From positions 1-60,539 of the forward strand of contig JAABTQ010000017.1 in assembly GCA_011389745.1 (NCBI GenBank): a stretch of 60,539 nucleotides of DNA. Reading direction: 5' to 3'. The notes under the pieces are model-generated. The model was not told where the DNA came from. It made no database searches and saw only the letters and a list, made by a program, of their open reading frames with translations. Below are positions 10,990-53,277 of the stretch, one piece after another (positions within the stretch are counted from its first letter, which is position 1; each line of letters starts with the position of its first letter). Position numbers and translations under genes: made by a program. The stretch comes from Desulfobacteraceae bacterium. Its GTDB lineage: Bacteria > Desulfobacterota > Desulfobacteria > Desulfobacterales > SKZT01.

Positions 10990-11172
10990 TTACGTTGTCA
11001 TGGTTTCCTCAACCCATGTCCAGAACTCGTTGAAAATTTTATCAATTTCATGTTTTTCCTGTTCTTTCCGGCTGAGCTTAGCTATTCCTTCATAAAATTT
11101 GTAGATCAGCTCGGACAAAGAGAAAGCTGAGGTAATATTTAACCGCTTATCTGTCTTGGAAGAATTAAAAAT
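10990..11172 (-). CDS. Possible small protein or gene fragment after narI
   Basis: An open frame without an ATG, overlapping the narI stop by a few bases and ending at 10990. The peptide includes SLSELIYKFYEGIAKLS and IFNEFWTWVEETMTT, which has the amphipathic helix pattern of a real protein. Possible starts are ATT at 11172 or TTG at 11118; neither has a strong ribosome site. It may be a remnant, or a small gene with an unusual start. Function unknown. Confidence 0.3.
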   Translation of the reverse strand: MFNSSKTDKRLNITSAFSLSELIYKFYEGIAKLSRKEQEKHEIDKIFNEFWTWVEETMTT

Positions 11173-11839: not shown

Positions 11840-11971
11840 AAGAGCACCTCGATTGAATAAATTTTATAGCTTAATATTTTATTTTGACAGTCCAAAGTTC
11901 TACGTCATGCCGGGTTGATCCGGCATCCGGAAAAAATAACCTCTTGTGTGTTTAATCAAAAGCTACTGTTT

Positions 11972-12493: not shown

Positions 12494-12497
12494 TTTT

Positions 12498-13916
12498 TTA
12501 ACCCGGATATCCACTTTCTCCCTGATCGGTGTAAAGCTGATTTTCATCGGTTTCACTCTTAGTGGGTACCACAAAGCGATTTTCAAATTTTGCAATAGAC
12601 AACAATTCATACATGGAAACCGCCGATTCAACGCTAAGACCGACTGCCTCCAACACCGAGTCATCCGGAGATTTTTTTATCCGGACCGATCTCATATACT
12701 CCCGCATTGCCATCAGCCGTTTCAACGCCAGCCTCACCGGAGCCTCATCTCCGGCTGTCAGAAGGTTGGCCAGATAAGTAATGGGAATCCTCATGGAATC
12801 GATAACATCCAAGCCCTCCGCATCTTGGGTATGTTCACTGATCGGACTCAAGGGCGGAATGTACCATACCATGGGAAGTGTCCGATATTCCGGGTGCAAA
12901 GGCAGTGCGAGTTTCCACTCTTTGGCCAGCATGTAAACCGGAGACCGAAGAGCCGCATCCATAAAATTTTTTGGTATCCCCTGGCCGGCTGCCGATTTTT
13001 GGATCTCAGGATCTTTGGGGTCAAGAATCATATCCAGGTGAGCCGGATACACTTCCTGCTCTGTTTTTGCGGAGGCGGCCTCCTTGATCCGGTTAGCATC
13101 ATAAAGTATCACACCGACGTATCTGATTCGTCCAACGCAGCTCAACGCACAGAGAGTCGGCATCCCTGCTTCGATCCTGGGGTAGCAGAAAATACACTTT
13201 TCCGAACGTCCGGTTTGCCAGTTGAAATAGACCTTTTTGTAGGGACATCCCGAGACACAATAGCGCCATCCGCGGCACCTTTCCTGGTCCACCAGGACAA
13301 TACCGTCCTCCTCCCTTTTGTAAAGTGCTCCCGAAGGGCAGGAGGCCACGCAAGCCGGATTCAGGCAGTGCTCGCAAAGACGGGGAAGGTAAAACATAAA
13401 CACATTCCTGAACGCAAGGTAAATGGAATAATCCAGGTTCCTGAAATTGATATCATACCTCCCGGTTTCGCTGACACCCGCCAGATCATCCTCCCAGTTT
13501 GGCCCCCATTTGATCTGCATATTCTCTCCAGTGATCAAAGATTTTGGCCGCGTGGATGGCTGATGGTTTTTGCGGGGGCTGGAAATTAGATTCTCATAGT
13601 CATAAGTCCAGGGTTCGTAGTAATCGTCGATTACCGGCAAATCCGGATTGTGAAAGATATTTAATAGTTTTTGAGTCCGCCCGCCGGCAGTCAGTTTCAG
13701 ATTGCCCCATTTAAGGCGCCATCCGCCTTTATGGATTTCCTGGTTTTCCCATTTGCGGGGATATCCCATACCGGGTTTGCTTTCTACGTTGTTGAACCAC
13801 ATGTATTCGGTGCCCTTGCGATTGGTCCACACGTTTTTGCAAGGTATACTGCAGGTATGGCAGCCGAGACATTTGTCCAGATTCAACACCATTGCATACT
13901 GAGCTTTAATATTCAT
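12498..13916 (-). CDS. narH: Respiratory nitrate reductase beta subunit NarH
   Basis: The 472-residue iron-sulfur subunit that carries electrons from NarI haems to NarG. Four cysteine groups typical of three 4Fe-4S and one 3Fe-4S cluster are visible: CLGCHTCSIPC near residue 15, CEHCLNPACVASCP near 185, CRGWRYCVSGCP near 215 (the group with Trp in place of one Cys, as in NarH) and CIFCYPRIEAGMPTLC near 242. It overlaps narG by 11 bases. Length is slightly below the E. coli protein but all domains are present. Confidence 0.95.
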   Translation of the reverse strand: MNIKAQYAMVLNLDKCLGCHTCSIPCKNVWTNRKGTEYMWFNNVESKPGMGYPRKWENQEIHKGGWRLKWGNLKLTAGGRTQKLLNIFHNPDLPVIDDYYEPWTYDYENLISSPRKNHQPSTRPKSLITGENMQIKWGPNWEDDLAGVSETGRYDINFRNLDYSIYLAFRNVFMFYLPRLCEHCLNPACVASCPSGALYKREEDGIVLVDQERCRGWRYCVSGCPYKKVYFNWQTGRSEKCIFCYPRIEAGMPTLCALSCVGRIRYVGVILYDANRIKEAASAKTEQEVYPAHLDMILDPKDPEIQKSAAGQGIPKNFMDAALRSPVYMLAKEWKLALPLHPEYRTLPMVWYIPPLSPISEHTQDAEGLDVIDSMRIPITYLANLLTAGDEAPVRLALKRLMAMREYMRSVRIKKSPDDSVLEAVGLSVESAVSMYELLSIAKFENRFVVPTKSETDENQLYTDQGESGYPG

Positions 13917-16900
13917 ACCAGTCGATCTCCCGTGCTTTGCGAACCACGATCACCTCGTCCCGCTGGGAGCCGACAGGACCGTAGTAGTTGAATCCATAAC
14001 TCAGTTGAGCGTACCCGCCGATCATGTGGGTGGGTTTCACCATAATACGTGTCACACTGTTATGTGTTCCTCCCCGCTTGCCGGACATTTTGGAACCGGG
14101 TGTGTTGATCAGTCTTTCCTGGGCATGATACATGAATGCCTTGCCCGGCGGGATACGATGGCTGACCACGGCTTTGGCCATAATCACACCATTGACATTG
14201 AAGCACTCCAGCCAGTCGTTGTCTTTGATACTTAGCTTTTGCGCATCCTCGTTATTAATCCAGATAGCTTCTCCGCCCCTGAAAAGTGTCAGCATGGTGA
14301 GTGTGTCCGAATAAGTGCTGTGAATTGACCACTTGGAATGGGGGGTCAGGTAATTGAGGACCAACTCCTCCTGTTCATTTCGATCGAGCTTTGTTGAACC
14401 TGAAGCCTGCATATTCAAAGGCGGGCGAAAAGTCGGAAGACTTTCCCCGAAGTTTCTCATCCATGGGTGATCCTGATAAAAATGGGCCCGCCCGGTCAGG
14501 GTCCTGAAAGGAACCTTTTCTTCGATATTGATCACAAAAGGTGAATAGCGACGGTCTTCAGACTCGATACCGCTCCATATCGGCGAAGTAATAATTTTTC
14601 TGGGCTGAGCGCTGATATCGGCAAATGAATACTTTTCTCCCTTCCTGTCCATGCTGAGGTGTTTCAGCGCTAAACCGGTTCGCTTTTCAATAATCTCCCA
14701 CGACTTCACCGCAGTAGCTCCGTTGGTTTCCGGCGCCAGCGCAAGAATCGTCTCTGCCACCTGTTTGCCTGTCACCAGCTGCGGCATGCCCTGGCTCACG
14801 CCGGTTTCCGAGACAATCCCCAGCTTTTCTTTAAGTTCTTCATATTCCTGGTTGGCTTGCCAGGTGACTCCCTTGGAACCGATACCGGGAGTTGCCGCCA
14901 TAGGCCCTAAAGCGGTCATCATCTTATAGGTATTTGAAAAATCTCGGGTCACCACGGTCATGGAAGGCATGGTTTTTCCGGGTATCGCCTCTGTCTCACC
15001 CTTGCTCCAGTCCCTGACTTGTGCCTGGGAAATTTCAGCGGGGCTGTCATGCATCAAAGGCGTGGCCACCAGGTCTTTCATGGGACCAAGATGAACCGCG
15101 GCCAGATCGGAGAATTTTTCGGCAATAGCCTTGAACTGGTCCCAGTTGGTGCGTGATTCCCAGGGCGGATCAATGGCCGGGTTAAATGGGTGGATAAAGG
15201 GATGCATGTCCGTGGAACTCAGATCGTGCATCTCGTACCAGCCGGCAGCCGGAAGTGCCACATCAGCATACATAGCGCTGGTGGACATCCTCAGCTCCAG
15301 GGTGACCAGCAGATCAAGCTTGCCTTCCGGTGCAGGCTCCCTCCAAATAATTTCTTCCGGACGGATAGCACTGTCGGTATTAAACACGGCGCTGTCGGTT
15401 CCTAGAAGGTGTTTAAGAAAGTATTCGTGGCCCTTGCCGCTGGCTCCCAGAAGGTTGGCCCGCCACAGAAAAAGCACCCTTGGAAAATTGGCAGGATTGT
15501 CGGGATCTTCTATGGCAAAACGCATATCCCCTGATTTTAAACGGTCCACTGCAGCAGCAATGATTTTTTCGTCGGTGTCGGCACCTTTTTCGATCGCATC
15601 GCGGCAAATATTCAATGGATTTCGGTCAAACTGGGGATAGGACGGCAGCCATCCCAGCCGGACCGCAATCGCGTTATAATCGGCGGCATGACGGCTTTTG
15701 TTCCCATTGCTGAAAGGCGCCAGCATGGTGTGCATGTCATAATTATCATAGCGCCACTGGTCACTGGCAAAATAGTAAAAAGAAGTTCCGTTTTGTTGTC
15801 GGGGCGGCCTGAGCCAGTCAAGACCGAACGCCACCTGGGCCCACGCGGCCTGGGGACGGACTTTTTCCTGGCCCACATAATGAGCCCATCCCCCTCCGTT
15901 AACCCCCTGACAACCGCACAGGGTGGTAAGATTGAGAATAGAGCGGTAGATCATATCGCTGTGGTACCAATGATTTGTCCCTGCTCCTAAAAAAATCATG
16001 GATTTACCATGGGTTTGTTCCGCATTGAGAGCAAATTCTCTGGCCACACGGATAACATCCTGACGGGGCACCCCGGTGATAGCCTCCTGCCATGCCGGTG
16101 TATAAGGCTTTGGATCATCGTAGTCTCTGGGGTAGTCATCAGTGAGCATATCGGCCTGAGGCAGGGCTATTCCCAATTGGGCCGCCATAAGATCGAAAAC
16201 CGTGGCCACCAGGATCTCTCCGGCATCTGTTTTTACTTTTTTAATCGGCACCACCCCGGTTCTAATGTGAGCACCTTTAAAATCAAAAAATGGAAGCTGA
16301 ACCTTAACCCATTGGTCATTTTCCGGCGCCAGGCTGAGAGCCGGATCAACAACATCGCCGGTCTCTGAATCCCTGAGATGAAGATTCCATTTGCCTTCAT
16401 CGCTCCAACGAAATCCGATGCTTCCGTTGGGTACGACAAATTGCTGTCCATTGGTATCAAAAAAAACGGTTTTCCATTCCCCATGGACGATATCTTTGCC
16501 GAGATCCTCGGCCCTGAGCATGCTTCCCGCTACATATTCATCCGTTCGTGGTTCTAAAACAACCAGAAAAGGTAAGTCGGTATAAGCCTTGACATAATTA
16601 ATGAAATAATTGCATTTGCGGTCAATATAAAATTCCTTGAAAACCACGTGGGTCATGGCCATGGCCAGTGCGGCATCCGTTCCTGCTTTGGCCGGAAGCC
16701 AGGTGTCGGCAAATTTTACATACTCGGCATAATCCGGTGCTACAGCCGCCACCCGTGCCCCACGATACCGGGCTTCGGTAAAAAAGTGTGCATCCGGAGT
16801 TCGGGTCATGGGCAAATTGGTTCCCCAGACAATCATGTAAGTGGAATCATACCAGTCAGCACTTTCGGGAACATCGGTCTGCTCTCCCCATACCTGAGGC

Positions 16901-17613
16901 GAGGCTGGGGGAAGATCACAATACCAATCATAAAAGCTGAGCATCGAGGCGCCGATGAGGGAGAGGAATCGGGCCCCTGATGCGTAGCACACCATGGACA
17001 TGGCCGGAATCGGTGTGAACCCGAAAACCCTGTCCGGACCATATTTTTTGATGGTATGCACCAGGGATGCAGCCACCAGGGTTGAAGCCTCATCCCAGGA
17101 GACCCGGACAAATCCGCCTTTACCTCTTTCCTTCTGAAATGCCTGCCGTTTTTGAGGGTCCTGGACAATACTCTCCCAGGCCCTGACCGGATCACCACAT
17201 TCGGTCAGGGCATTACGCCACATCAGTAGAAGTTTTGATCTCACAAGGGGATGTTTTAACCTGACAGGGCTGTAGGTGTACCAGGAATAGGTGGCGCCAC
17301 GGGGGCACCCGCGCGGTTCATGGTTTGGAAAGCCGGTCCCGCAATCCGGATAATCCGTTCTCTGGGTTTCCCAGACGATGATTCCGTTTTTTACATAGAC
17401 ATCCCACGAACATGAACCGGTGCAGTTTACTCCGTGGGTGGAACGGACCTTTTTGTCATACTGCCATCTGTTTCGGTAAAACTTTTCCCAATCACGCTGT
17501 CCGCAACGAGCCTGAGCCCAATTGTCTGAGAGGGATTCTTCCCGGCAGCCGTACTTGTCACCTCGTGGACGAAAAAATCTCAGTGATTTGAGAAACCGAT
17601 TCTTGGGCATCAT
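13906..17613 (-). CDS. narG: Respiratory nitrate reductase alpha subunit NarG
   Basis: The 1235-residue catalytic subunit, reducing nitrate to nitrite at a bis-MGD molybdenum centre on the cytoplasmic side. The FS0 iron-sulfur site is STHGVNCTGSCSW (His60, Cys64, Cys68), followed by PNHEPRGCPRGATYSWY. VWGEQTDVPESADWYDS holds the predicted Mo-ligand Asp near residue 253, equivalent to E. coli Asp222. There is no twin-arginine signal, so this is the cytoplasm-facing NarG and not an archaeal-type periplasmic one. Two ATGs (17613, 17610) follow GGAGGTAA. It lies 69 bases after the Ttr-like catalytic gene and may share its transcript. Confidence 0.95.
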   Translation of the reverse strand: MMPKNRFLKSLRFFRPRGDKYGCREESLSDNWAQARCGQRDWEKFYRNRWQYDKKVRSTHGVNCTGSCSWDVYVKNGIIVWETQRTDYPDCGTGFPNHEPRGCPRGATYSWYTYSPVRLKHPLVRSKLLLMWRNALTECGDPVRAWESIVQDPQKRQAFQKERGKGGFVRVSWDEASTLVAASLVHTIKKYGPDRVFGFTPIPAMSMVCYASGARFLSLIGASMLSFYDWYCDLPPASPQVWGEQTDVPESADWYDSTYMIVWGTNLPMTRTPDAHFFTEARYRGARVAAVAPDYAEYVKFADTWLPAKAGTDAALAMAMTHVVFKEFYIDRKCNYFINYVKAYTDLPFLVVLEPRTDEYVAGSMLRAEDLGKDIVHGEWKTVFFDTNGQQFVVPNGSIGFRWSDEGKWNLHLRDSETGDVVDPALSLAPENDQWVKVQLPFFDFKGAHIRTGVVPIKKVKTDAGEILVATVFDLMAAQLGIALPQADMLTDDYPRDYDDPKPYTPAWQEAITGVPRQDVIRVAREFALNAEQTHGKSMIFLGAGTNHWYHSDMIYRSILNLTTLCGCQGVNGGGWAHYVGQEKVRPQAAWAQVAFGLDWLRPPRQQNGTSFYYFASDQWRYDNYDMHTMLAPFSNGNKSRHAADYNAIAVRLGWLPSYPQFDRNPLNICRDAIEKGADTDEKIIAAAVDRLKSGDMRFAIEDPDNPANFPRVLFLWRANLLGASGKGHEYFLKHLLGTDSAVFNTDSAIRPEEIIWREPAPEGKLDLLVTLELRMSTSAMYADVALPAAGWYEMHDLSSTDMHPFIHPFNPAIDPPWESRTNWDQFKAIAEKFSDLAAVHLGPMKDLVATPLMHDSPAEISQAQVRDWSKGETEAIPGKTMPSMTVVTRDFSNTYKMMTALGPMAATPGIGSKGVTWQANQEYEELKEKLGIVSETGVSQGMPQLVTGKQVAETILALAPETNGATAVKSWEIIEKRTGLALKHLSMDRKGEKYSFADISAQPRKIITSPIWSGIESEDRRYSPFVINIEEKVPFRTLTGRAHFYQDHPWMRNFGESLPTFRPPLNMQASGSTKLDRNEQEELVLNYLTPHSKWSIHSTYSDTLTMLTLFRGGEAIWINNEDAQKLSIKDNDWLECFNVNGVIMAKAVVSHRIPPGKAFMYHAQERLINTPGSKMSGKRGGTHNSVTRIMVKPTHMIGGYAQLSYGFNYYGPVGSQRDEVIVVRKAREIDWYEY

Positions 17614-32551: not shown

Positions 32552-33613
32552 CTACTTTTTTTCCTGGTCGAACAGCGCCTTTTCCATCGCAAGCACCTTT
32601 TCGCGATAAGGTTTATCTTTTTTTTCGCGGGGAACAACAATAGTGAAAGTTGCTCCCTTACCGGAAATGCTTGAAACCCTTATATCACCGCCCATATCGC
32701 GAAGAATTTTTTTGCAGGAGGCAAGGGATAAGCCGGACCCGTCTTTTTTAGTGGTAAAAAAAGGCTTGAAAATTTTGTAAAGATGCTCCGGATTGATGCC
32801 CTCACCCTGATCTTGAACCTGAACTTCACAATGAGTTCCTTTCCGTAAGGATCGGATCCGAATCTTTTGGCGAGGGGTGCTGAATTCCAGGGCATTTGTA
32901 AGCAGAATATCCAGCACCCATCCGATCTTGTCCACGTCAACCATTGATGGACATCCGGCTTCATCAAGGTCGCTTTCAATAATAACATCCGCTTGCCGGG
33001 CCTTTTCCCGATTTTTTGCGATTCTTTGCCGAATCAATTGGTTCAGGTCGCTTGATATCGCTCGGATTTCTTCCTGAGGAACATATGACGTCAGATTATC
33101 CACAAGGCGATCAAGTCTTTGCAGCTCCCCGTGAAAATTCAAGTCGAGTTCGGTGCAGGCGAAATTTCCTGCGTCCCTGGTCAACTTTTTAAGCGCTTCG
33201 ACGATGTTTTTGATTTCATATGCCATTGCCGATGCAGCCCTTCCGAGGACTGTGAGTTTTTCAGCCAGGATAAGCTTTTCCCCTTGCTTTTTTTGCCGCT
33301 CCACCAGCCATCCGACTAAAAAAGCGATCAAATTGAAAAAAACGATTTGGGTGAAAACAGCCGCTCCTCCCATGTGGGCACTCTCCGAAAGCAACATCTG
33401 GGGAGCGTAAATCAAGCTGATACAAATAGATACTGCCAGCGCAAATTTCAAACCGAACCAGAAACCGGCCAACAAAATGGGTATTGTGAAAAGCTCCCTG
33501 TGGATAATATGAATCTCCGTGCTTGCGTGTATGGGAATATAGTGCAAAGCCGCAATGATTGCGGTTAAAATAACAATTGCCGATATTTTCGAAGATTTTG
33601 CCGTCGTCTCCAT
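32552..33613 (-). CDS. Histidine-kinase-like protein lacking the phospho-acceptor His
   Basis: A 353-residue membrane sensor. Residues 10-105 hold four membrane helices; a helical linker follows, then a dimerisation-like helix pair and an ATPase domain with N-box (LLTNALEFS), G1 (QDQGEGI), F-box (FKPFFTTKK) and G2 (GSGLSLAS). In the H-box position the sequence is AMAYEIKNI, so the normally phosphorylated His is Tyr132. No response regulator gene lies nearby. It is 115 bases downstream of the copper ATPase on the same strand. It may bind ATP and act by contact with another kinase, or be inactive. A partial second copy lies at 49.9-50.4 kb. Confidence 0.8.
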   Translation of the reverse strand: METTAKSSKISAIVILTAIIAALHYIPIHASTEIHIIHRELFTIPILLAGFWFGLKFALAVSICISLIYAPQMLLSESAHMGGAAVFTQIVFFNLIAFLVGWLVERQKKQGEKLILAEKLTVLGRAASAMAYEIKNIVEALKKLTRDAGNFACTELDLNFHGELQRLDRLVDNLTSYVPQEEIRAISSDLNQLIRQRIAKNREKARQADVIIESDLDEAGCPSMVDVDKIGWVLDILLTNALEFSTPRQKIRIRSLRKGTHCEVQVQDQGEGINPEHLYKIFKPFFTTKKDGSGLSLASCKKILRDMGGDIRVSSISGKGATFTIVVPREKKDKPYREKVLAMEKALFDQEKK

Positions 33614-33728: not shown

Positions 33729-35831
33729 TCATTTGGCGATCCTAAGGAATCTCGCATTAATGGCAACGATCACCGTACTTAAGGACATAAGGACCGCCCC
33801 CATGGCCGGAGACAACAGGATGCCGTATGTATACAGGACACCTGCCGCAAGGGGTATGGCAAATATATTGTATCCCGTGGCCCACGCAAGATTCTGCATC
33901 ATCTTCCGATAGGTTGCCCGTGAAAGGCCTATAATGGCGACGGCATCTAAGGGATTGCTGTGAACCAGGATGATATCCGCTGTCTGGACCGCCACATCCG
34001 TTCCCGCGCCGATGGCGATGCCCACATCCGCTTGTGCCAATGCCGGTGCGTCGTTTACGCCGTCTCCGGTCATGGCCACAACCAACCCGCGCGACTGGAC
34101 CTCCTTGACCTTTTCGGCTTTGTCCCGGGGCAGAACCTCCGCAAAATACTCGTCCAGGCCGATTTCTTCCGAGACCCATTTGGCCACCAGATTGTTGTCG
34201 CCGGTGAGCATCATGCATTGAATGCCCATCTCCCTGAGTTTGGACAGGGCTTCCTTCGATTCCTCCCGAATGATATCCGCCAGGGCGATGGCGCCTATGA
34301 GTTCTTCGTCGATCAAGACAAAAACCACGGTTTTGCCCTGGGAATTAAATGTATCGATCCGCTCGTCTTTCATCGGTATATCGTTTTCCTTGAGAAAACC
34401 GGGGCTCACGACCTTGACTTCTCTGCCGTCCACCTTACCCTGAGCGCCTTTTCCCGGTATGGACTTAAAATTTTCCACCCTCGGCGGTTTTTCAACTGAA
34501 GCGACGATTCCCTTGGCGATTGGATGCTCTGAATGCATTTCAATCGCGGCGGCGTACTTGAGCAGCTCTTTTTCATCCGTCCCGTCTGCCAAAACAACGG
34601 TGTCGGTTACGCCAAATTCACCTCTGGTCAGGGTGCCCGTTTTGTCAAAGATAATCGCTTGGATGTTACGGCTTTTCTCAAACGCAGTCCGGTCCCGGAT
34701 GAGAAGACCGTTTTTGGCGGCAAGCGCGGTGGATACGGCGACCACAAGCGGTACGGCAAGCCCTAAAGCATGGGGGCAGGTGATCACCATGACGGTTACC
34801 GTCCGTTCCAGCGCGAAGGCGAAATCCTTGCCCATCAAGGCCAACCAAACGATCAGTGTGATCGCGCCTCCGGACAGGGCAATAATCGTCAGCCATAGCG
34901 CCGCCCGGTTGGCCAGATCCTGGCTTCGGGATTTGCTTTGCTGGGCTTGTTCGACCAGATCGATCACCTGGGACAGAAAGGAATCTTTCCCGGTTTTTTG
35001 AACTTCGGTGGTGATGGAACCCTCGCCGTTGATGGAGCCCCCGATGACCTTGGCGCCGGCCTGTTTTTCTACCGGCTTGGATTCCCCCGTCAGCATGGCT
35101 TCGTTGACCGAGCTTTCGCCTTCCACCACCTCGCCGTCGACCGGCACTTTTTCTCCCGGTTTGATCAGCACACGATCACCGGATTTAAGCTCTTCGATCG
35201 GCACATCCTCGGTGCTGCCGTCCTCCATGACCTTATGGGCGTCGGAAGGCATCAGCTTTGCTAGTTCCTCCAGGGCGCGAGAGGCCCCCATAACAGACCT
35301 CATCTCAATCCAGTGTCCCAAAAGCATGATGTCGATCAGCGTGGCCAGTTCCCAGAAAAACACCTTCCCGCTCAAGCCGAAAACCACCACGCTGCTATAC
35401 CCGTAGGCCGTGGCGATGGCGACGGCAATTAAGGTCATCATTCCGGGCTGTTTTTTTTGCAACTCGTCAAAGAGCCCTTTCAGAAACGGCCAACCGCCGT
35501 AAAAGAACACAAACGAGGAAAGCACCCACAACACATAGATATCGCCGGGAAAACCGAGCGCCTGTTTGAATCCCAGAAAAGTCTGGATCATCGGAGACAA
35601 GACCAGAATAGGCACCGTCGCACCCAAAGAGATCCAGAAACGTTTTCTGAAGTCGGCCACCATTTGGGCATGGTGATCGCCGCCCTTGTGGCCTTCGTGA
35701 GACTTGTTTTTTTTGTGATCACCGTGTTTCACCCCGTTATGGCCCTCATGCATCTCATGGCCTTCATGTTGGCCGGAGCTGCCCTTGGATGGATCACCTC
35801 CTCCGCGTTTGTGAGTATTTTCTTTTGCCAT
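33729..35831 (-). CDS. copB: Copper-translocating P-type ATPase, CopB type (CPH)
   Basis: A 700-residue inner-membrane pump that exports copper or silver. The N-terminus (residues 1-60) is His-rich (HEGHEMHEGH, GDHHA) in place of CxxC metal-binding domains. In order follow TGES (actuator), the membrane motif TCPHALGLAVP with CPH instead of CPC, DKTGTLTRGE (phosphorylated Asp), HP in SEHPIAKGI and [19 protein letters not shown] pumps are the IB-3 subgroup. The start ATG follows GAGGAGAAAGAAGC, 14 bases after the YHS-lactate dehydrogenase gene, so the two are an operon. Confidence 0.93.
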   Translation of the reverse strand: MAKENTHKRGGGDPSKGSSGQHEGHEMHEGHNGVKHGDHKKNKSHEGHKGGDHHAQMVADFRKRFWISLGATVPILVLSPMIQTFLGFKQALGFPGDIYVLWVLSSFVFFYGGWPFLKGLFDELQKKQPGMMTLIAVAIATAYGYSSVVVFGLSGKVFFWELATLIDIMLLGHWIEMRSVMGASRALEELAKLMPSDAHKVMEDGSTEDVPIEELKSGDRVLIKPGEKVPVDGEVVEGESSVNEAMLTGESKPVEKQAGAKVIGGSINGEGSITTEVQKTGKDSFLSQVIDLVEQAQQSKSRSQDLANRAALWLTIIALSGGAITLIVWLALMGKDFAFALERTVTVMVITCPHALGLAVPLVVAVSTALAAKNGLLIRDRTAFEKSRNIQAIIFDKTGTLTRGEFGVTDTVVLADGTDEKELLKYAAAIEMHSEHPIAKGIVASVEKPPRVENFKSIPGKGAQGKVDGREVKVVSPGFLKENDIPMKDERIDTFNSQGKTVVFVLIDEELIGAIALADIIREESKEALSKLREMGIQCMMLTGDNNLVAKWVSEEIGLDEYFAEVLPRDKAEKVKEVQSRGLVVAMTGDGVNDAPALAQADVGIAIGAGTDVAVQTADIILVHSNPLDAVAIIGLSRATYRKMMQNLAWATGYNIFAIPLAAGVLYTYGILLSPAMGAVLMSLSTVIVAINARFLRIAK

Positions 35832-35845
35832 GCTTCTTTCTCCTC

Positions 35846-36943
35846 TCAGATATCGAGTTCACCGATTATTTTTTTTAAAGTTTCTGCGGAAGTCCGTAGA
35901 TTGTGACGCTCGGCTTCATCCAGGTTTATCTCAATGTGCTTTGAAATGCCGTTTATGTTTAAAATGGTGGGTATGCTCAGACAAACATCTGATATGCCGT
36001 AGTAATTATTGATCAAGCTGGAAACTGTCAGGACACTGTTCTCGTCTCGCAGAATGCTGCCGGCAATTCGCTCGACGGCAAGTGCGATGGCGAAATTGGT
36101 GTGCCCTTTCCGACTGATTATTTCGTATGCCGCATTTTTTACCTGGCCAAAAATCTCATCCATTTCCTCAGGCGAGCAATTCCTTTCACAAGCAAAACAA
36201 TGTTTTTTTAAGGCCAAGCCGGCAATATTGGCCTGGCTCCAGACAGGCACCTCGCTATCACCGTGCTCGCCAATAATGTAGGCATGGACGTTACGGGGGT
36301 CGACCCGACAATGGCGGCTGAGCAAAAATCTGAAACGTGCGGTGTCGAGAGTGGTCCCTGATCCTATGACCCGATTCATGGAAAAATGAGAGACCTTGAG
36401 TGCAACATAGGTCAGAATATCCACGGGGTTGGATACGATCAGCAACGTTTTTGGTTCATGTGCCGTGATTTTGGGAATGATGTCCTTGAAAATTTCAGTG
36501 TTTTTGCGCACGAGATCCAGCCGTGTCTCACCCGGTTTTTGAGCCGCGCCAGCGGTAACGACAACAATATCCGCACCCTTGCAATCGGAATAATTCCCCG
36601 CGTAAATTCTTGTCGGTGAAACAAAGGAAAGGCCATGATTCAGGTCCATGGCATGGCCCTCGGCTAAGTCGGAGTCCAAGTCGACAAGGGCTATGGTTGA
36701 AGCAAGACTGCTCATCATAAGAGCAAAGCAGATGGTCGCACCCACCTGTCCGGCCCCCACAACAACCACTTTGCGGGTTTTCGAGAGTTCATTTTCCGGT
36801 ATATTTGAATATTTTTCCGGATTCCTCTCGAATTTCACCTTGCAGTCCTCGCTACAGAAAAAATACTCTTCCCCCATATACATGGTTTTTTGTCGAGCCT
36901 GTGCGTCCTCAATCTCCATACCGCAAACCGGATCTTTTGCCAT
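35846..36943 (-). CDS. YHS-domain / L-lactate dehydrogenase fusion
   Basis: A 365-residue cytoplasmic protein. Residues 1-46 are a YHS domain (DPVCGMEIED, FFCSEDCKVKFERNPEKY; Cys7, Cys30, Cys34), a metal-binding unit usually joined to copper ATPases. From residue 57 it is a full lactate/malate dehydrogenase: NAD loop VVVGAGQVGATI, substrate loop TAGAAQKPGETR (Gln135 indicates lactate rather than malate; Arg141 is the catalytic loop Arg), GSGTTLDTARFR and catalytic IGEHGDSEVP (His227). All catalytic residues are kept. One continuous frame without frameshift joins the parts, and the gene has its own ribosome site (GGGGAAGG). It directly precedes the copper ATPase. A copper-responsive or copper-protected lactate enzyme is inference. 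Confidence 0.85.
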   Translation of the reverse strand: MAKDPVCGMEIEDAQARQKTMYMGEEYFFCSEDCKVKFERNPEKYSNIPENELSKTRKVVVVGAGQVGATICFALMMSSLASTIALVDLDSDLAEGHAMDLNHGLSFVSPTRIYAGNYSDCKGADIVVVTAGAAQKPGETRLDLVRKNTEIFKDIIPKITAHEPKTLLIVSNPVDILTYVALKVSHFSMNRVIGSGTTLDTARFRFLLSRHCRVDPRNVHAYIIGEHGDSEVPVWSQANIAGLALKKHCFACERNCSPEEMDEIFGQVKNAAYEIISRKGHTNFAIALAVERIAGSILRDENSVLTVSSLINNYYGISDVCLSIPTILNINGISKHIEINLDEAERHNLRTSAETLKKIIGELDI

Positions 36944-37037
36944 AAGCCTTCCCCTTATTTAAGCTGTTTTACCTCACACCAGAGTTCGGACCAAAGCCCT
37001 CGAACAAAACCCTCCCTCAATTTTGGGGCATCCTGCC

Positions 37038-37293: not shown

Positions 37294-38043
37294 TCAGCAA
37301 GGGCAATCGTGGAACGGAGTATAATATTGCTGCTTGCGTTTTGCCTCTTTCTCACTAAGCCAGTGAGCCCGGGTTACCATCCCAATGCCCCCAAGGACCA
37401 GCGCAAACCCTACGAGATGTATCCAGTAGAATTGATCGCCAAGCCAAAAGTATGACACAAGCAGACCACTGGCCGGCATGGCTCCCATGAATCCGGATGC
37501 AGTGCCGACCTTAACCGCTTTTAGGCCAAGGAACCAGAGCATCGTTCCAATTCCAAACGGACCGATACCCCACCAAAAAAGTGCTATCCATTGTTGTGTC
37601 GTTGGCCTTGAAAAGTTAAAACTGGCGGCCTGATAGATTCCCGGAACTGCAAATAACAAGACTGCAACCCAGCCCGCCAAAGGCAGGAGGATGAGCGGTC
37701 TGACATTACCCGACACTTTTTTTGCAAACAGCGAGTAGGCTGTGGCGCTGCAGACTGCCCCGAAAACCAGCAAGCTGCCCGAAACGAGCTCAACGATCCC
37801 CGAGGCCTGTATTGATTTGCCCGATGTGTTGATGACAAGAACCCCAATCACTGAAAAAATGACTGCCATGATTTTGCGCCAATCCAAGTTGTCACCGAGA
37901 AACAAGGTTGCACCTATTTCAAAAGGCTCCCATGACTTGCCTTCGCCCGCTGCCCGGCTTTCGAGAAACTCATCAAAAAGCCTCTTCCAAGAAGCGGCGT
38001 GCACTTTTGCGGTCTTCGTAACCACCCCGTCCAGATCGAGCAT
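37294..38043 (-). pseudogene. Chimera of a HAD phosphatase start and an EamA transporter end
   Basis: One frame of 249 residues made of two unrelated parts. Residues 1-43 (MLDLDGVVTKTAKVHAASWK ... SWEPF) are the start of a beta-phosphoglucomutase-like HAD hydrolase, and upstream in-frame codons (ITRKNYDAV) continue that similarity up to a stop. From about residue 46 the sequence is the second part of a DMT/EamA transporter, with five to six membrane helices (LDWRKIMAVIFSVIGVLVIN; GIGPFGIGTMLWFLGL; LVGFALVLGGIGM). Both source genes are truncated at the joint. The product probably has no original function, though a membrane protein could still be made. Confidence 0.7.
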
Positions 38044-38765: not shown

Positions 38766-39938
38766 CTAATCCCATTCGGCAGGCTCCTCAGCGCCTTTGA
38801 ATCCTTCGCACATGCATCTCTTGTGGGCGTCATGCACGGCGCTTGCAGCCGAGTTTTCTCTTTCATCCGGACCGCCAGGAAATGGGGCTGTCTTACCAGA
38901 GGCAAGGAAGTCGTTGGTAATCCCCAGAGATTGATCTGTCTTTTTGATGGATTGCGATCCGTCTTTTTCGATACCTGCCAATGCGCGGATCGCGTCAATA
39001 TTTTCGGGAATGGTGATCGCCTCGTTGTGCACCTGGTAGGTTAGGTAGATTTCGCCATTGTCAACCGCCATGCTGTCTTCCCAGACTGCGACTTCCCACA
39101 TGTCGGCCCTGGTCCGGCCCAAATCCCTCATCAGCTCAATCACTGAGTTCAGCGCCACCAGATTGTCCCGGGCGCGTATGAAAGCGATGCGCGGCGCAAG
39201 TGTCAGTACTTCATGCACTTCGTCCAGGCTCGTTGCTTTTGTCGTCTCAATCATGGTGAAATGAATGTGGCTGAGATTGTGTGATCCAGCGCCCGCCATG
39301 GTGACGAGATTTAACTCGGGAATGACTGTTTTGGCATCCGGACCCTGATGGCTGGGGACCTTGGCCTCCGGAATCACGGTGTTGATAATGCCCTCTTTAT
39401 GACTCTCCCAGGGGTCGGTCGCCCGGCGGAGGATGACCGTTCGTGCACGTTTCACCAGGCCGCGCTGATGAAAAGCGCCGAGCACCCGGACCAGAGCAGT
39501 GGTGTTACATGAGACCACCCGCGTGCTCTGCCTGCCGACTGCCCCCTCATAGTTTGCCTGGGCGACGAAGGAATAGCCGGCAACTTCGTGTTTCTCGCCC
39601 CCTTCGTAGATTGCCTTCACTCCGGCTTTTTCGTACAAAGCCCGGTTTTTCGCGGCTATCTTCTTGGGGGTGCAATCCACAACAACATCGGACTGACCCA
39701 GCAGAGTTTCCAAGAGTCCCTCAACAGGTATGCCGGCGGCCTTCATTTCCTCAAGTTTGTCGGAAGTGGAAGCAAAGATCCGATAGCCCTTCTCCACAGC
39801 GACCCGGATACGATAATCGTGAATAATGTCGCAGATTCCGGCCAATTCCATATCATTTTGCAAAACAACTGCATCGGCTACACGTTTGCCTATTACCCCG
39901 TAACCGTTTACGGCGACTTTTACTCTTTTATCCGGCAT
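38766..39938 (-). CDS. Type II (archaeal-type) glyceraldehyde-3-phosphate dehydrogenase
   Basis: A 390-residue cytoplasmic enzyme of the archaeal GAPDH class, which is distinct from usual bacterial GapA. It oxidises GAP to 1,3-bisphosphoglycerate with NAD(P). The Rossmann start is VAVNGYGVIGKRVADAV, and the catalytic Cys is in VVSCNTTALVRVL (Cys144). GAGSHNLSHIHFTM and LGRTRADMWEVAVWED are family segments. About 48 residues after KKTDQSLGI exceed the usual length and look unrelated, possibly from read-through into foreign DNA. Start follows AAAGGGAGGTTTATC. It is isolated among copper genes, with no glycolysis gene nearby. Confidence 0.85.
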   Translation of the reverse strand: MPDKRVKVAVNGYGVIGKRVADAVVLQNDMELAGICDIIHDYRIRVAVEKGYRIFASTSDKLEEMKAAGIPVEGLLETLLGQSDVVVDCTPKKIAAKNRALYEKAGVKAIYEGGEKHEVAGYSFVAQANYEGAVGRQSTRVVSCNTTALVRVLGAFHQRGLVKRARTVILRRATDPWESHKEGIINTVIPEAKVPSHQGPDAKTVIPELNLVTMAGAGSHNLSHIHFTMIETTKATSLDEVHEVLTLAPRIAFIRARDNLVALNSVIELMRDLGRTRADMWEVAVWEDSMAVDNGEIYLTYQVHNEAITIPENIDAIRALAGIEKDGSQSIKKTDQSLGITNDFLASGKTAPFPGGPDERENSAASAVHDAHKRCMCEGFKGAEEPAEWD

Positions 39939-42349: not shown

Positions 42350-43198
42350 TCAAAACCACATCCTCACCCCGACCACAAAGGAAGTAACGTCGATATCTTC
42401 ACCGTCGGCCTCCGCCAGATCCGCAGTTTCGCCGAGTTTACGATTCCAGGATACTCCGATGTAGGGCGCAAATTCCCGGCGGATTTCGTAGCGCAGCCGA
42501 AGTCCCAGTTCGATGTCGTTGAAGCCCTGGCCGACGCCATATTCTTCGATCTCCTGTAAGGCGATGCTGGTTTCGAATCGCGGCTGCAGGATCAGCCTCT
42601 GGCTGAGCAGCAAGTCATATTCGGCCTCCAAGGCCGCAGAAACGTCACCGTCCTCGCTGACATATGCGGTGGCCTCCACTTCGAACCAGAGCGGCGCCAT
42701 CCCCTGAACGCCAAAAGCGGCGAAAGTCCGGTCGGGATCAGGCTTGAAATCGTGGCGTATGCCGACCTGTGCGTCCCAAAAGGAAGCAATGTTGCGGCTG
42801 TAAAACAGCTCGGTTTGAGCCTCCTCGAATTCTTCTTCATCGATCAGCCATGTCCCCTCGCTCTTGAACCATAACTTGTTGTAGTCCGTGCCGACCCAGG
42901 CCTGCACATCCCAAAGCATCAGGTCTTTTCCTTCTCCGGTCTGGTATTCCAGGCGGTCTGCGCTAAAAACGGCGAAGACCTCGTTGTCGTGAACAGGCTG
43001 CACACCGAAGTTTTCCTGGGCCCCTGATTGAGCATCGTCGGCGTATTTTCGAATCGCTTCACCTTTCTCCGGATGGGTATTCACCTCGTGATAGTCTGCT
43101 GGAAAGCCCCGATCCCCGGGATTCGTGTAAGAACTGTCCGCGGCCGGGGCCGCTGCCGGTAAAAACGCCAGAAACAGAATTATCAACCAAGTTTTCAT
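42350..43198 (-). CDS. pcoB: Copper resistance outer-membrane protein CopB/PcoB
   Basis: A 282-residue beta-barrel protein with a signal peptide (MKTWLIILFLAFLPAAAPAAD). The segments DNEVFAVFSADRLEYQTGEG, DVQAWVGTDYNKLWFKSEG, FSRN-like ELFYSRNIASFWDAQVGIRHD and GLRLRYEIRREFAPYIGVSW are typical of CopB. The final residue is Phe, as in outer-membrane barrels. CopB works with the multicopper oxidase CopA, encoded 16 bases upstream. The ATG at 43198 follows AAGGAGAAGG. The usual N-terminal Met/His-rich repeat of CopB is missing here. Confidence 0.92.
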   Translation of the reverse strand: MKTWLIILFLAFLPAAAPAADSSYTNPGDRGFPADYHEVNTHPEKGEAIRKYADDAQSGAQENFGVQPVHDNEVFAVFSADRLEYQTGEGKDLMLWDVQAWVGTDYNKLWFKSEGTWLIDEEEFEEAQTELFYSRNIASFWDAQVGIRHDFKPDPDRTFAAFGVQGMAPLWFEVEATAYVSEDGDVSAALEAEYDLLLSQRLILQPRFETSIALQEIEEYGVGQGFNDIELGLRLRYEIRREFAPYIGVSWNRKLGETADLAEADGEDIDVTSFVVGVRMWF

Positions 43199-43214
43199 TG
43201 CAGTCCTTCTCCTT

Positions 43215-44969
43215 TCAAGCAACCCGAACCACTTGAAACATACCCGCTTCCATGTGGTATAGCAGGTGGCAGTGGAAGGCCCAATCGCCCTTTTCGATCG
43301 GCGTGATCAGGGCGGAGAGCACTTCGCCGGGTTTGGTTAGAATCGTGTGTTTGAACGGGAGTTTGTCTGCGCCGTTTTCAAGCTGCATCCACATGCCGTG
43401 CAGGTGGATGGGATGCTCCATCATGGTATGGTTGACCAAAAAGAGACGCAGCCGCTCGTTGTGCCGAAAGAGATAGGGCCCGGGATGTTCGCTGAACTTT
43501 TTGCCGTCGAAGGAGAACATGTACCGCTCCATGTTGGCGGTGATATTGATGGTCATCTCCCGGTCGACGGTTTCAGAGTATTGCTGGGGTTCAGTGGAAA
43601 TGAGATCGTCGTAGGTGAGTACCCGCCAGCCGTCCTCGCCCAGGCCGAGGCCCGGTTCGTCGAGGCGGTACTTGGTATTCATGATCACCATGGCCACATT
43701 TGTATTTCCCTTGTCCGGCTTGAAAGGAGTCGGCCCGTTGGGGCCTGGGATTCTTGGATCGTGCCGCGAAGGATTGTTCCCGCCATCCATTTTGCCATGA
43801 TCCATGCCGGCCATCCCGCCGTGGTCCATGGCCCCCATGCCGATATCCTCCAACCGCCTTACCGGGCGAGGCCGCAGTGCGGGCACCGGTGCCTCTATTC
43901 CTGCTTCGGGGGTCAGAGTGCCTCGGGTGTAACCGCTGCGATCCAAAGATTCTGCGAAAAGGGTAAATGCCCGATCTTCTCTGGGTCGCACCAGCACATC
44001 GTAGGTTTCGGCTACCCCAATGCGAAACTCGTGAACCAAAACCGGACGCACCGCCTTGCCGTCGGCCATGACCACCTCCATCTCCAGACCCGGAATGCGC
44101 ACATCGTAATTGGTGGTGGTGGAGGCGTTGATGAAGCGCAGGCGGATAGTTTCGCCCGGGTTGAAAAGGGCCGTCCAGTTCATGTCCGGCGAGTGGCCGT
44201 TCATAAGGTACGTGTAGGTGTATGCGGTCACGTCGGCCAAATCGACCGGGCTCATGCGCATCCTGCCCCAGGCCGTGCGGTCTGCGACCGTATCGGCAAA
44301 GCCGCGTTCACCGATGTCGCTGAAAAAATCCCATACAGTGCGGCGCTGGAAATTATAATAATGGCCCACCAGATTAATGTGGCGGAAGATCGTCTCCGGG
44401 TCTTCGAATGACCAGTCGGAAAGCACCACCGGGTAGTCCCGGTCGTAGTCGAACGGTTCCCCGTCTTTCGGGTCAATGATCAGGGGGCCGTAGGTGCCGG
44501 TCTGCTCCTGGAACCGGGAGTGGCTGTGGTACCAGTAGGTGCCGGCCTGTTTGACCCGGTACCGGTATTCGTAGGTCTCTCCCGGCCGGATGCCGTTGAA
44601 GTTCACCCCCGGAACCCCGTCCATCCGAAAAGGCACCAGGATTCCGTGCCAGTGGATGGAAGCATGCTCTGTGTCCATCAACCGGTTGGTCACATTGAGG
44701 ATCACATCATCCCCCTCCCGCAGATGCACCAACGGCCCCGGAACCGTGCCGTTGATTCCGGTGGATATCCCTTTACGTCCGTCGATTGTTATGGGAGAAT
44801 ATCCGATGGCCAGGTCATACCGGCTTTTTGCAGCGATTTTGTCAATACCGCTATCGGCTGATTTTGCCCATACCGGCAAGGGCCAGGACAATTTCAGGCC
44901 AGCCATAAAAAGGCCTGCTCCCGTTCCCTTGATAAAGGTTCGACGCGTCATGCCGCATGCTTTTTCCAT
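43215..44969 (-). CDS. pcoA: Copper resistance multicopper oxidase CopA/PcoA
   Basis: A 584-residue periplasmic oxidase that detoxifies Cu(I) by oxidation and binds copper. It has a twin-arginine signal (MTRRTFIKGTGAGLF). Copper-site motifs are HWHG (near residue 105), WYHSHSRFQEQ, HPIHLHGMW and HCHLLYHMEAGMF, covering the type 1 and trinuclear sites. The Met/His-rich loop MDHGGMAGMDHGKMDGG near residue 390 is the Cu(I)-binding region. It is the first gene of the copAB pair. A fragment of a second copy lies about 1.6 kb upstream. Confidence 0.94.
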   Translation of the reverse strand: MEKACGMTRRTFIKGTGAGLFMAGLKLSWPLPVWAKSADSGIDKIAAKSRYDLAIGYSPITIDGRKGISTGINGTVPGPLVHLREGDDVILNVTNRLMDTEHASIHWHGILVPFRMDGVPGVNFNGIRPGETYEYRYRVKQAGTYWYHSHSRFQEQTGTYGPLIIDPKDGEPFDYDRDYPVVLSDWSFEDPETIFRHINLVGHYYNFQRRTVWDFFSDIGERGFADTVADRTAWGRMRMSPVDLADVTAYTYTYLMNGHSPDMNWTALFNPGETIRLRFINASTTTNYDVRIPGLEMEVVMADGKAVRPVLVHEFRIGVAETYDVLVRPREDRAFTLFAESLDRSGYTRGTLTPEAGIEAPVPALRPRPVRRLEDIGMGAMDHGGMAGMDHGKMDGGNNPSRHDPRIPGPNGPTPFKPDKGNTNVAMVIMNTKYRLDEPGLGLGEDGWRVLTYDDLISTEPQQYSETVDREMTINITANMERYMFSFDGKKFSEHPGPYLFRHNERLRLFLVNHTMMEHPIHLHGMWMQLENGADKLPFKHTILTKPGEVLSALITPIEKGDWAFHCHLLYHMEAGMFQVVRVA

Positions 44970-48893: not shown

Positions 48894-49008
48894 CGTTCAT
48901 CTCCTATCTTTTATACTCTCCCAAAAAGGGTCCAACCAGTGGTCCGGCCTCTCGTCTCTCGTCGCACGGCATAAAAAATCATTTTCATTGTTCTACCTGT
49001 CATGTCCC

Positions 49009-49197
49009 GTTTTTTCTTCAAGGTGTCCTTGACATCGATTTTCGTCAAAATCCCGAAACCTTCTTCTTTCAGGGCCTGTGTTACCCTGGAGATAGCCTCT
49101 TCGAATCCTGAATGAATCGTTTGCTGTAATAATAGGTCATAACCAGCTCCTTTCATCCGGACAAAATAGCTGCGACCGGACTCAGCTTTCAATTTCC
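49009..49197 (-). pseudogene. Partial, frameshifted second copy of the DUF302 gene
   Basis: This segment repeats 50798-50987 with few changes. It includes the end of the SHOCT gene, the intergenic ribosome site and the first half of the DUF302 gene. In the run CGTTTTG of the intact copy one T is missing (49129 region), shifting the frame after TIHS. The copy stops within the DUF302 gene after TLKKK, where unrelated sequence begins. Confidence 0.85.
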
Positions 49198-49938: not shown

Positions 49939-50436
49939 TCATTTCGAACCCTTATTCTTTTCCTGTTCGAACAGCGCCTTTTCCATCGCAAGCACCTTTT
50001 CACGATAAGGTTTATCCTTTTTTTTGCGGGGCACCACAATCGTGAAAGTTGCTCCCTTGCCGGAAATGCTTGAAACCCTTATATCACCGCCCATATCGCG
50101 AAGAATTTTTTTACAGGAGGCAAGTGATAAGCCGGAACCGTCTTTTTTAGTGGTAAAAAAGGGTTTGAAGATTTTGTGAAGATGCTCCGGATTGATGCCC
50201 GCACCCTGATCTTGAACCTGCACTTCACAATGAGTTCCTTTCCATAAGGATCGGATCCGAATCTTTTGGCGAGGGGCTCTGAATTCCAGGGCATTTGTAA
50301 TCAAAATATCCAGGACCCTTCCGATCTTGTCCACGTCAACCATTGATGGAAATCCAGCTTCATCAAGGTCGCTTTCAATAATAACATCTGCTTGCCGGGC
50401 CTTTTCCCTATTTTTTGCGATTTTTTGCCGAATCAA
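49939..50436 (-). pseudogene. Partial copy of the kinase-like gene (ATPase domain only)
   Basis: The 165 codons match the C-terminal part of the gene at 32552-33613 from about residue 193 onward, almost residue for residue (IRQKIAKNREKARQADV ... FKPFFTTKKDGSGLSL). The start of similarity is abrupt at GATTCGGCAAAA (50430-50436). The membrane part, linker and Tyr-bearing helix are absent. The last residues differ (NKGSK). It may still be translated from an upstream start, but lacks any sensor part. Confidence 0.88.
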
Positions 50437-50543: not shown

Positions 50544-50930
50544 TCATGTATTTTCGATTGCCTTTTTCAGCTTATGCCCAATTGTCTCGGCGATTTTCTG
50601 CAGTTCGGGATTGTCTATCGCTTTCATTGACGCAAGCGGGTCAATTGCCGCAATTTCAACGCCACCATTGGCAGCTTCCTGAATGATTACATTGCAGGGC
50701 AACATCATGCCGACTTTGTCCTCCGCCTGTAGAGCCTTGTAGGCAAAAGGAGGGTTGCAGGCGCCCAGTATCCGGTAGTTTCTGAAGTCAACGTCCAGTT
50801 TTTTCTTCAAGGTGCCCTTGACATCGATTTCCATCAAAATCCCGAAACCTTCTTCCTTCAGGGCTTGTGTTACCCTGGAGATAGCCTCTTCGAATCCTGA
50901 ATGAATCGTTTTGCTGTAATAATAGGTCAT
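50544..50930 (-). CDS. DUF302 family protein
   Basis: A 128-residue cytoplasmic protein of the DUF302 family (function not established; often linked to metal and redox clusters). Family features are FEEAISRVTQALKEEGFGIL, the switch ILGACNPPFAYKAL and VGMMLPCNVIIQE with conserved Cys. It starts behind GGAGCTGGTT, 41 bases after the SHOCT gene. A broken half-copy lies 1.6 kb downstream on the same strand. Confidence 0.85.
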   Translation of the reverse strand: MTYYYSKTIHSGFEEAISRVTQALKEEGFGILMEIDVKGTLKKKLDVDFRNYRILGACNPPFAYKALQAEDKVGMMLPCNVIIQEAANGGVEIAAIDPLASMKAIDNPELQKIAETIGHKLKKAIENT

Positions 50931-51712: not shown

Positions 51713-53277
51713 TTAATATTCCCTCACAAAATAATTGCGCATCATTCCCATATCCTCATGTTCCAGGTTGTGACAATGGTACAAAAACATTCCCGGATAA
51801 TCATCAAAATCAACCAATATTCTGATTCGTTCACCGGGCATCAGCAAAATCGTATCTTTCCAGCCTTCATCCACATAGCCTTCATGAGCAACGCCGCCGC
51901 GTTCAATAACACGGAACTGTTTACCATGCAGGTGAATGGGATGGGGCATGTTCATCATATTAATCATTCCACCCCCGGTGTTGTTGAATTCCCATATCTC
52001 CGTCGTGTCCAATCGGACTATCTCGTCGTCTGCCACCTCCTCCATTTGAAACACCCGACCGTTGATGGTCCATTGCATATGTCGCATCGTGAGATAAAAT
52101 TGCCGGGGACGAAAATAGTTCACAGCGTCTTTAGGTCTGACAGGCCCGATCTCGGAAAGTATGTCCGGGAGACGGTAATTTGTTTTCACAGGTTGGGTCA
52201 CATACACCTTAAGTACGGAAAAGGCCGCACCATTTGGAAGGTTTAGATTTTGGCCTATTCGCCCGCCCATCATCATGCCGCGGCCCATTCGCCCCCCACC
52301 CATGCCACCGGCATCGAAGGGAAGGCTTAAAAGGGATGTGTTATAGCCGACCGGATTATTACTGAAATCAGCCCAGATCTCCAACCGTTCTCCGGGGCTT
52401 AAAAACGCGTAGCTTCTGAGGATAGGCCTTTCCAGCAATCCACCGTCCGTACCAATAATGGTTAGCGGCCGGCCGTCTTCCCATGCCAGCTTATAAATAC
52501 GTGAATTGGAGCCGTTCAGCAGGCGTAACCGATAGGCACCGGTCGATACGGGGAGCGTGAAATCCGGCATGCCGTTAATCATTATCATATCCCCCAAAAA
52601 TCCGGTCATCCGCTCCATTCTTTGGCCCGACATGTATACCAGCTGATTGCCTGAATCGAACGTTCGGTCCTGAATCACCAGTGGAACATCATATTCACCA
52701 TCGGGAAGACCTAAGTCCTGCTCTTCCTCGTCGGACACGAGAAAAAGGCCTGCCAGACCCCGATACACCTGTGGCCCGGTTCTGCCGTGAGGGTGCGGAT
52801 GATACCAATAGGTTCCGGCTCTGTTCTTGACCTCGAACTCATACAAATAGGATTGTCCCTGCGGAATGACATAGCGCGGGTGGCCGTCCATGATCGCGGG
52901 TACATGCAGGCCATGCCAGTGCACGATAGACTCTTCCGGAATGGCGTTATTGAAGCGAATCCGTATCTTTTCACCCTGATGGACTTTGATGATCGGGCCA
53001 AGATAGCTACGGGGCATTTCAACAATCCGGGCACGGTCGCCTTTGTGCACCGTTGCATGGTAGCGCCAAACCCTGGTGGGGTTTCCCGGAAAAACAGAAA
53101 CCTTGCCGGGGCGCGATGAATAAACCCTGTTTCTATATTTTGTCCGGCTGCGAAACCATCGAATCCCGGCCAGAGCCCGCCCGCCATCAATCCCAGTGAT
53201 CCATAGCCGGCCAATTTCAAAAATTGCCTTCTGGAATGCACGTTATAAAATCCTATGTCTGTGTTTCTGTCTTTCAT
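51713..53277 (-). pseudogene. Second multicopper oxidase with one frameshift
   Basis: A second oxidase of CueO/SufI type, about 520 codons. The start ATG (53277) follows GCAGGAGGCTGGCG and the twin-arginine signal is SRRQFLKLAGYGSLG. In the first frame the protein ends in nonsense after FIHRAP; in a second frame it continues GKVSVFPGNPTRVWRYHATV and runs to 51713. The joint is near 53105-53112 in CGCCCCGGCAAGG. Copper sites HWHG, HPHPHG, HPIHLHG and HCHNLEHEDMGMM are intact in the second frame, with a Met/Gly loop GGGRMGRGMMMGG. It may be a true mutation or a sequencing error. Confidence 0.85.

Follow-up and report, generated by a model that had tools for sequence, protein, structure and literature searches.

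A YHS–lactate dehydrogenase fusion in a copper island of a Desulfobacteraceae bacterium, with a possible metal-responsive role

The locus and the domains of the fusion protein

The window, by which we mean the whole 60,539-nucleotide stretch that was analysed (contig JAABTQ010000017.1 of a Desulfobacteraceae bacterium), carries on its reverse strand a gene that joins a YHS domain to a lactate dehydrogenase (LDH), next to genes for copper handling. The features are as follows.

35846..36943, minus strand: YHS–LDH fusion gene, 365 aa (ORF, family profiles, intact homologues)
36944..36959, minus strand: putative ribosome binding site AATAAGGGGAAGGCTT (sequence reading)
36803..36937, minus strand: YHS domain, residues 3-47 (Pfam, 63.6 bits), with putative ligands D4, C7, C30 and C34
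36773..36802, minus strand: linker, residues 48-57, about 10 residues, length kept, pLDDT below 50 at 48-54
36362..36772, minus strand: LDH NAD-binding domain, residues 58-194 (Pfam Ldh_1_N), holding Q135 and R141
35861..36355, minus strand: LDH C-terminal domain, residues 197-361 (Pfam Ldh_1_C), holding D200, R203, H227 and R205/H220
33729..35831, minus strand: P1B-3 (CPH) copper ATPase with a His-rich N terminus (Pfam; TIGR01511, 642.8 bits)
32552..33613, minus strand: sensor histidine kinase, next after the ATPase (family profiles)
42350..43222, minus strand: CopB copper resistance protein (PF05275, 305.4 bits), same island
43215..44969, minus strand: multicopper oxidase, same island (family profile)
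51713..53050, minus strand: second multicopper oxidase, same island (family profile)

The fusion is a single uninterrupted frame in the ORF list, opening with an ATG preceded by GGGGAAGG. Its continuity had been claimed in an earlier note made from the letters alone, and it holds, with both domains over their Pfam cut-offs (for YHS, PF04945, the gathering cut-off is 30.3 bits). The whole protein scores 391.6 bits with TIGR01771 (L-LDH-NAD) against a curated cut-off of 303.55, and residues 58-361 make up a complete NAD-type L-lactate dehydrogenase. The residues listed in that note (C7, C30, C34, Q135, R141 and H227) are all as stated; D4, the likely fourth ligand, was absent from its list and completes a putative set of one Asp and three Cys in the YHS domain.

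The specificity and catalytic residues Q135, R141, D200, R203 and H227 are present, and we take them to be LDH positions Gln102, Arg109, Asp168, Arg171 and His195. Position 102 is Gln in lactate enzymes and Arg in malate enzymes; malate dehydrogenase identity is ruled out by this Gln together with the TIGR01771 score. By profile and residues the LDH part is an NAD-dependent L-lactate dehydrogenase, with activity predicted. R205 and H220, presumably residues of the fructose-1,6-bisphosphate (FBP) site, are both found in four of the five intact fusions, the window included, while Gln replaces the His in genome G344. The protein thus resembles FBP-binding bacterial L-LDHs (TIGR01771; PDB 4m1q, 1a5z) in fold and in the kept catalytic residues, but differs from them in its N-terminal YHS domain: the best 60 of 161 PDB matches start at residue 47 or later, that is, they lack the YHS domain.

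An AlphaFold2 model of the fusion (mean pLDDT 89) has both parts folded around a stretch, residues 48-54, with values below 50, and Foldseek matched the LDH part to known L-LDHs, best to 4m1q (TM 0.96 by target length). The YHS domain modelled alone was of low confidence (pLDDT 51.8) and was left out of the interpretation. A separate LDH product from an internal start is unlikely, because residues 40-64 hold no ATG or TTG codon and their only GTG codons, at V59 and V62, have no recognisable Shine-Dalgarno sequence before them. We also considered CxxCxxxC at 249-256 as a second metal site specific to the fusion and rejected it, similar Cys stretches being present in many unfused LDHs.

Distribution of intact and broken copies

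Intact fusions were found in four other genomes, G024, G346, G344 and G633, which span three further families and whose proteins are 92, 89, 64 and 60% identical to that of the window. The G024 fusion sequence is that of JAABSP010000018.1 and the G346 fusion sequence that of SLPT01000192.1. An assembly joint at residues 46-57, which the earlier note had considered possible, is not what we see: the same in-frame junction recurs in these two records and in G344 and G633, which excludes both a misassembly and a frameshift between the two domains. The architecture is likewise not confined to one genome, as that note had allowed it might be.

The genome samples searched (order, class, family and phylum) overlap. 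Matches over residues 1-365 came from 4 of 389 genomes in the order search, namely G024, G346, G344 and the own genome, G000, and full-length matches from 2 of 395 in the phylum search, again with the own genome, the other one being G633. At finer scale, the fusion is present in 2 of 36 genomes of the family of G346, in one of three of the window's family (the own genome alone) and in one of three of the order of G633; it was not found in G002, the other genome of the window's genus examined. When the N-terminal 110 residues were searched against the class, 4 of 389 genomes matched over 1-110, one of them through a truncated copy in G237, and G343 matched over residues 1-58 only. The one scan of genome contigs that was not confined to the phylum used peptides of one sequence, with low sensitivity for other phyla, and gave three relatives, two of them fused. 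The ten plasmid matches listed, out of 161, include no fusion and start at residue 50 or later, and no relative of the fusion was found in viral contigs. Given so few full-length matches, the fusion is rare and patchy.

Broken copies are also present. The match of the truncated G237 fusion (C567) to the window ends after residue 216, in G287 the LDH is preceded by a YHS relic that contains a stop, LDH pieces remain in G707, G731 and G154, and the G001 copy is interrupted by a contig end. The G287 relic is supported by shuffling, as 0 of 300 shuffles reached its score; candidate relics before the unfused LDHs of G237 (C114), G257 and G429 had no such support, since 61, 147 and 279 of 300 shuffles did so. 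In G343 the YHS domain is joined to an IS66 C-terminal element; at L076 1501-1839 the domain and its linker run in frame into this element of the transposase. Some of the breaks could be assembly faults, the genomes being drafts. Unless draft assembly made them, the broken copies in G707, G731, G154 and G237 suggest that the fusion is dispensable.

YHS domains are widespread: a PF04945 scan of 146 genomes of the order gave 67 places, with YHS in 48 of the 146. Besides the two LDH fusions, 16 of the 67 were examined by reading: eight copper ATPase N termini, seven small proteins of less than 175 aa and one efflux-adaptor-like protein. The other 49 places, which include a frame of 421 aa in G063, lie outside this set; within it (the 16 and the two fusions), LDH is the only metabolic enzyme partner of YHS. 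In the adaptor-like case (L107 295-1653, in G127), by reading a CusB-type efflux adaptor, YHS is placed differently again, its match lying at the distal end of the protein.

Copper genes and other neighbours

The ATPase lies 14 bases downstream of the fusion, with GAGGAGAAAGAAGC as the gap. It has CPH at 352, GYN(x)4P at 653, MSLST at 682 and 11 His among its first 60 residues, and so meets all four features named for the P1B-3 type (CPH, GYN(x)4P, MSxST and a His-rich N terminus) in PMC5552934. That source describes P1B-3 ATPases as reported for Cu2+, and Enterococcus hirae CopB, also CPH, as reported to move Cu+ (PMC5552934). Pfam calls neither a YHS nor an HMA domain in the window ATPase. 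Both the gap and the copper ATPase neighbourhood had been read correctly in the earlier note; the window holds this CPH ATPase, the two multicopper oxidases and CopB, and a further P-type ATPase.

The G024 locus has a multicopper oxidase, CopB and a CPH ATPase 92% identical to that of the window; its fusion is followed by an SBF-family transporter (ACR3-like by reading) and then an ArsR-type regulator. There a remnant of the 3' end of a lost second YHS–LDH stands before the ATPase (L041 4713), and a 106-base internal piece of an ATPase (L041 9501-9606) follows the intact fusion. From these two remnants, the G024 ancestor probably had the gene order of the window. In G346 an HMA-domain gene lies upstream, and the match continues into the 5' end of an ATPase gene. 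No copper gene was recognised on the 9.4 kb contig of G344, where four neighbours were assigned by Pfam and the rest by eye (EamA by reading, rubrerythrin-like, USP and GH65), or in the 16 kb of G633, where one neighbour was assigned by Pfam and the rest by eye (TerB, and genes unrelated by reading).

Copper genes therefore stand beside three of the five intact fusions (window, G024 and G346), and because these three loci are near-copies of one another they count as one history. In G707 an LDH relic lies directly before an ATPase 79% identical to that of the window, which extends the LDH–ATPase adjacency to greater divergence. What remains of the copper-linked enzyme proposed in the earlier note is a real, recurring fusion with intact residues and with copper neighbours in the window and G024; a fixed place in a copper operon does not remain, in view of G344 and G633.

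The copper island appears to rearrange repeatedly. At 37294-38043 (minus strand) the window has a chimera of a beta-phosphoglucomutase-like HAD N terminus (a weak match) and the C-terminal half of EamA, and the EamA block 37922-37293 has identical borders in L041 and L042 and nearly identical ones in L076. By reading, a histidine-kinase C terminus (32552-33613 and 49939-50436) and a small DUF302-like protein (48911-49192 and 50544-50930) are apparently duplicated. A type II (archaeal-type) GAPDH gene lies near the fusion (38766-39938, minus strand), and GAPDH and SOD genes are found near the truncated fusion in G237.

Conservation and selection

Six fusion rows were aligned, the five intact copies and the truncated one of G237. 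D4, C7, C30 and C34 are invariant in all six, although YHS identity drops to 34-53% between divergent copies. In all, 13 of the 47 positions of the domain do not vary; under a uniform draw, these would include all four ligands with a probability of 0.004. Linker length is constant within one residue, whereas linker identity is 0-56%, and 0-22% between divergent copies.

The LDH part is under purifying selection: of 15 pairs, 8 allowed dN/dS to be computed and gave 0.06-0.12 (0.06-0.11 in the three computable comparisons with the window), with synonymous sites near saturation in deep pairs. For YHS the ratio was computable in 12 of the 15 pairs, nine of which lie at 0.17-0.38; against the window it is 0.35 for G346, 0.26 for G344 and 0.27 for G633. 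Higher values were obtained in three pairs, namely 0.85 for window–G024 (about 11 substitutions), 1.41 for G024–G346 (about 16 substitutions) and 0.61 for G346–G344. Judging from the invariant ligands and these ratios, the YHS domain seems to have been under long-term constraint, though a weaker one than the LDH, and because of the three higher values, two of them from few substitutions, recent constraint is unproven.

The faster evolution of YHS is what one would expect if deletion-prone rearrangements in the island had attached the domain to LDH and it were a near-neutral, tolerated N-terminal extension. Such an origin would also agree with the YHS-less close relatives and with the chimeric or truncated genes of the island family, such as the bPGM–EamA gene at 37294-38043, the YHS–IS66 gene of G343 and the ATPase and LDH relics of G024. 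Neutral extensions decay, however, and between the window and G633 the junction, the linker length and the four putative ligands are kept although the domains have diverged to 34% (YHS) and 66% (LDH) identity. We regard a near-neutral fusion as distinctly unlikely.

The same data bear on the possibility that YHS serves as a metal buffer, or hands metal to the neighbouring P1B-3 ATPase in the manner of a chaperone, while the LDH tetramer acts chiefly as a soluble carrier and its catalysis does not respond. The flexible linker of near-constant length would suit this, as would the ATPase being the immediate neighbour; moreover, the window ATPase has a His-rich N terminus but no Pfam YHS or HMA domain, whereas copper ATPases of related genomes bear their own N-terminal YHS. 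A pure carrier should lose catalytic residues, yet the LDH has kept them under the stronger purifying selection described above (dN/dS 0.06-0.11), and the fusions of G344 and G633 have no recognised ATPase nearby. We regard buffering or delivery as unlikely.

Origin, transfer and host

In a tree of 50 rows, all five fused ones fall within a ten-row clade (support 95/84) that also holds the unfused LDHs of G257 and G237 (C114), the relic-bearing LDH of G287 and two truncated rows. At least three changes are needed for the five fused rows and 0% of bootstrap trees have a single change, so that a single gain requires later losses; in this count truncated rows without an N terminus were taken as unfused, and short fragments (such as L047, L078 and L067) and the truncated fusion L044 were omitted from the tree. 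The history is compatible with one gain and two losses.

Among the sequences fetched, the best non-fused match of the window YHS is the YHS of a CopA ATPase in G257, where about 2.3 kb separate this ATPase from an unfused LDH that belongs to the fusion clade. A plausible source of the YHS part, though not a proven one, is therefore the N terminus of a YHS-CopA ATPase that neighboured an LDH gene in the way seen in G257. YHS-CopA ATPases (e.g., L046 11313-13988, 891 aa) carry the same YHS at their extreme N terminus (MA-DPVCGM), but there it is attached to a membrane pump containing two HMA stretches and not to a dehydrogenase.

The fusion gene seems to be horizontally mobile, because the window and G024, which belong to different families, have fusions with 92% identity and a dS of 0.21, while their RecA proteins are 72% identical and saturated; for comparison, the same-genus RecA pair G000–G002 has a dS of 1.26. 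No RecA over the cut-off was found in G346. The genes beside the fusion have other histories, as judged from EamA, which is 94% identical between G024 and G344 while their fusions are 64% identical. In single cases misbinning of contigs could be the explanation instead of transfer: the contig of G346 measures 3.7 kb, and the G+C content of the window, 48.9%, exceeds that of five other stretches of its own genome (41.4-48.8%).

The host is probably a sulfate reducer, since dsrA is found over the cut-off in its genome; the window also has genes that read as respiratory nitrate reductase (NarGHI-like, 11165-17613, minus strand). The genome encodes an MDH-like protein (C17; L012) with Arg at the specificity position, a likely malate dehydrogenase, and a second, unfused LDH-family protein (C18) with Gln there. 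Because of this second Gln-type LDH, the fused one is probably an addition and not the housekeeping enzyme.

Proposed function

In the open-access literature we found no paper on a YHS–LDH fusion, an architecture that subscription papers or protein-architecture databases may nevertheless list, and only one soluble enzyme–YHS fusion with a measured copper response. This is a class IIIc adenylyl cyclase of Mycobacterium phlei with a C-terminal YHS domain and ligands D178/C181/C204/C208 (PMC4626032). According to that report, 1-10 µM Cu2+, with Mg2+, stimulates or switches on the full-length enzyme in vitro, the catalytic domain alone is unaffected by low micromolar Cu2+, and copper is the only activating metal among those tested (PMC4626032). 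The ligands of the fusion (positions 4/7/30/34, D-x2-C-x22-C-x3-C, 3/23/4) have the spacing given there for the cyclase. In both proteins a short linker, of 8 residues in the cyclase and about 10 in the fusion, connects YHS to an enzyme that is soluble and oligomeric; unlike the cyclase, the fusion has an LDH as partner, YHS at the N terminus and a metal response that is predicted rather than measured.

Based on this comparison, we tentatively propose that the protein may be an accessory LDH of a copper island with a metal-responsive regulatory YHS domain, a reading that we hold as possible. In this reading D4/C7/C30/C34 of the N-terminal, TRASH-like YHS would coordinate a soft transition metal, copper being the likeliest, and the LDH tetramer would display four such domains on short flexible tethers. 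Metal occupancy would then change the activity or stability of LDH, as in the M. phlei cyclase, and cytoplasmic copper would in this way be coupled to the flux from pyruvate to lactate, which regenerates NAD+ and needs no iron-sulfur enzyme. In Desulfobacterota the fusion probably had a single origin, and may then have spread and decayed with copper-resistance islands. The ligand spacing is identical to that of the cyclase, and copper bound to YHS would accordingly modulate LDH; the identity of the metal, the regulation with its sign, the physiological role and the origin of the YHS part are inferred.

Alternatively, the domain could take up a soft ligand other than copper, such as zinc, iron or arsenite, or act as a protein-interaction finger, linking LDH to general metal or oxidative stress. 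This is quite improbable: copper genes lie beside three of the five intact loci, and the cyclase, the closest studied enzyme–YHS fusion, was activated by copper only among the metals tested (PMC4626032). In its favour are the SBF-family transporter and ArsR-type regulator after the G024 fusion, SOD and GAPDH near the truncated G237 copy, the USP, GH65 and rubrerythrin-like genes in G344 and TerB in G633.

For copper gating itself, we counted as opposing evidence that two of the five intact loci (G344 and G633) have no recognised copper gene, and that the clade relatives G257 and G237 (C114) have no YHS while G287 has a broken relic; LDH can thus do without YHS. Since the cyclase responds to Cu2+ and the P1B-3 type is reported for Cu2+, an assay with Cu(I) only could miss an effect.

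Copper toxicity disables iron-sulfur enzymes. If copper activates the enzyme, the fusion would be an iron-sulfur-free electron sink for pyruvate. An inhibiting sign would agree with Staphylococcus aureus L-LDH, which 1.5 mM Cu is reported to turn off rather than on (PMC6350627). A lactate enzyme under copper control has a parallel in the lactate oxidase LctO of Lactococcus lactis, which is controlled by CopR (PMC5651008); such control is proposed here for the fusion, whereas LctO is described as an NAD-independent oxidase with transcriptional control.

LctO is not known to have a YHS domain. A copper-gated LDH, doubtful as it is, would combine a post-translational switch by cytosolic copper, a portable YHS domain, mobile copper islands and an iron-sulfur-free pyruvate outlet for anaerobes. 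By analogy, YHS–LDH would be a further case of the YHS-regulated kind of enzyme, and, if it can be expressed and its activity followed through NADH absorbance, the function of YHS would become open to direct test. It could reveal direct control of metabolism by copper, rather than control through transcription.
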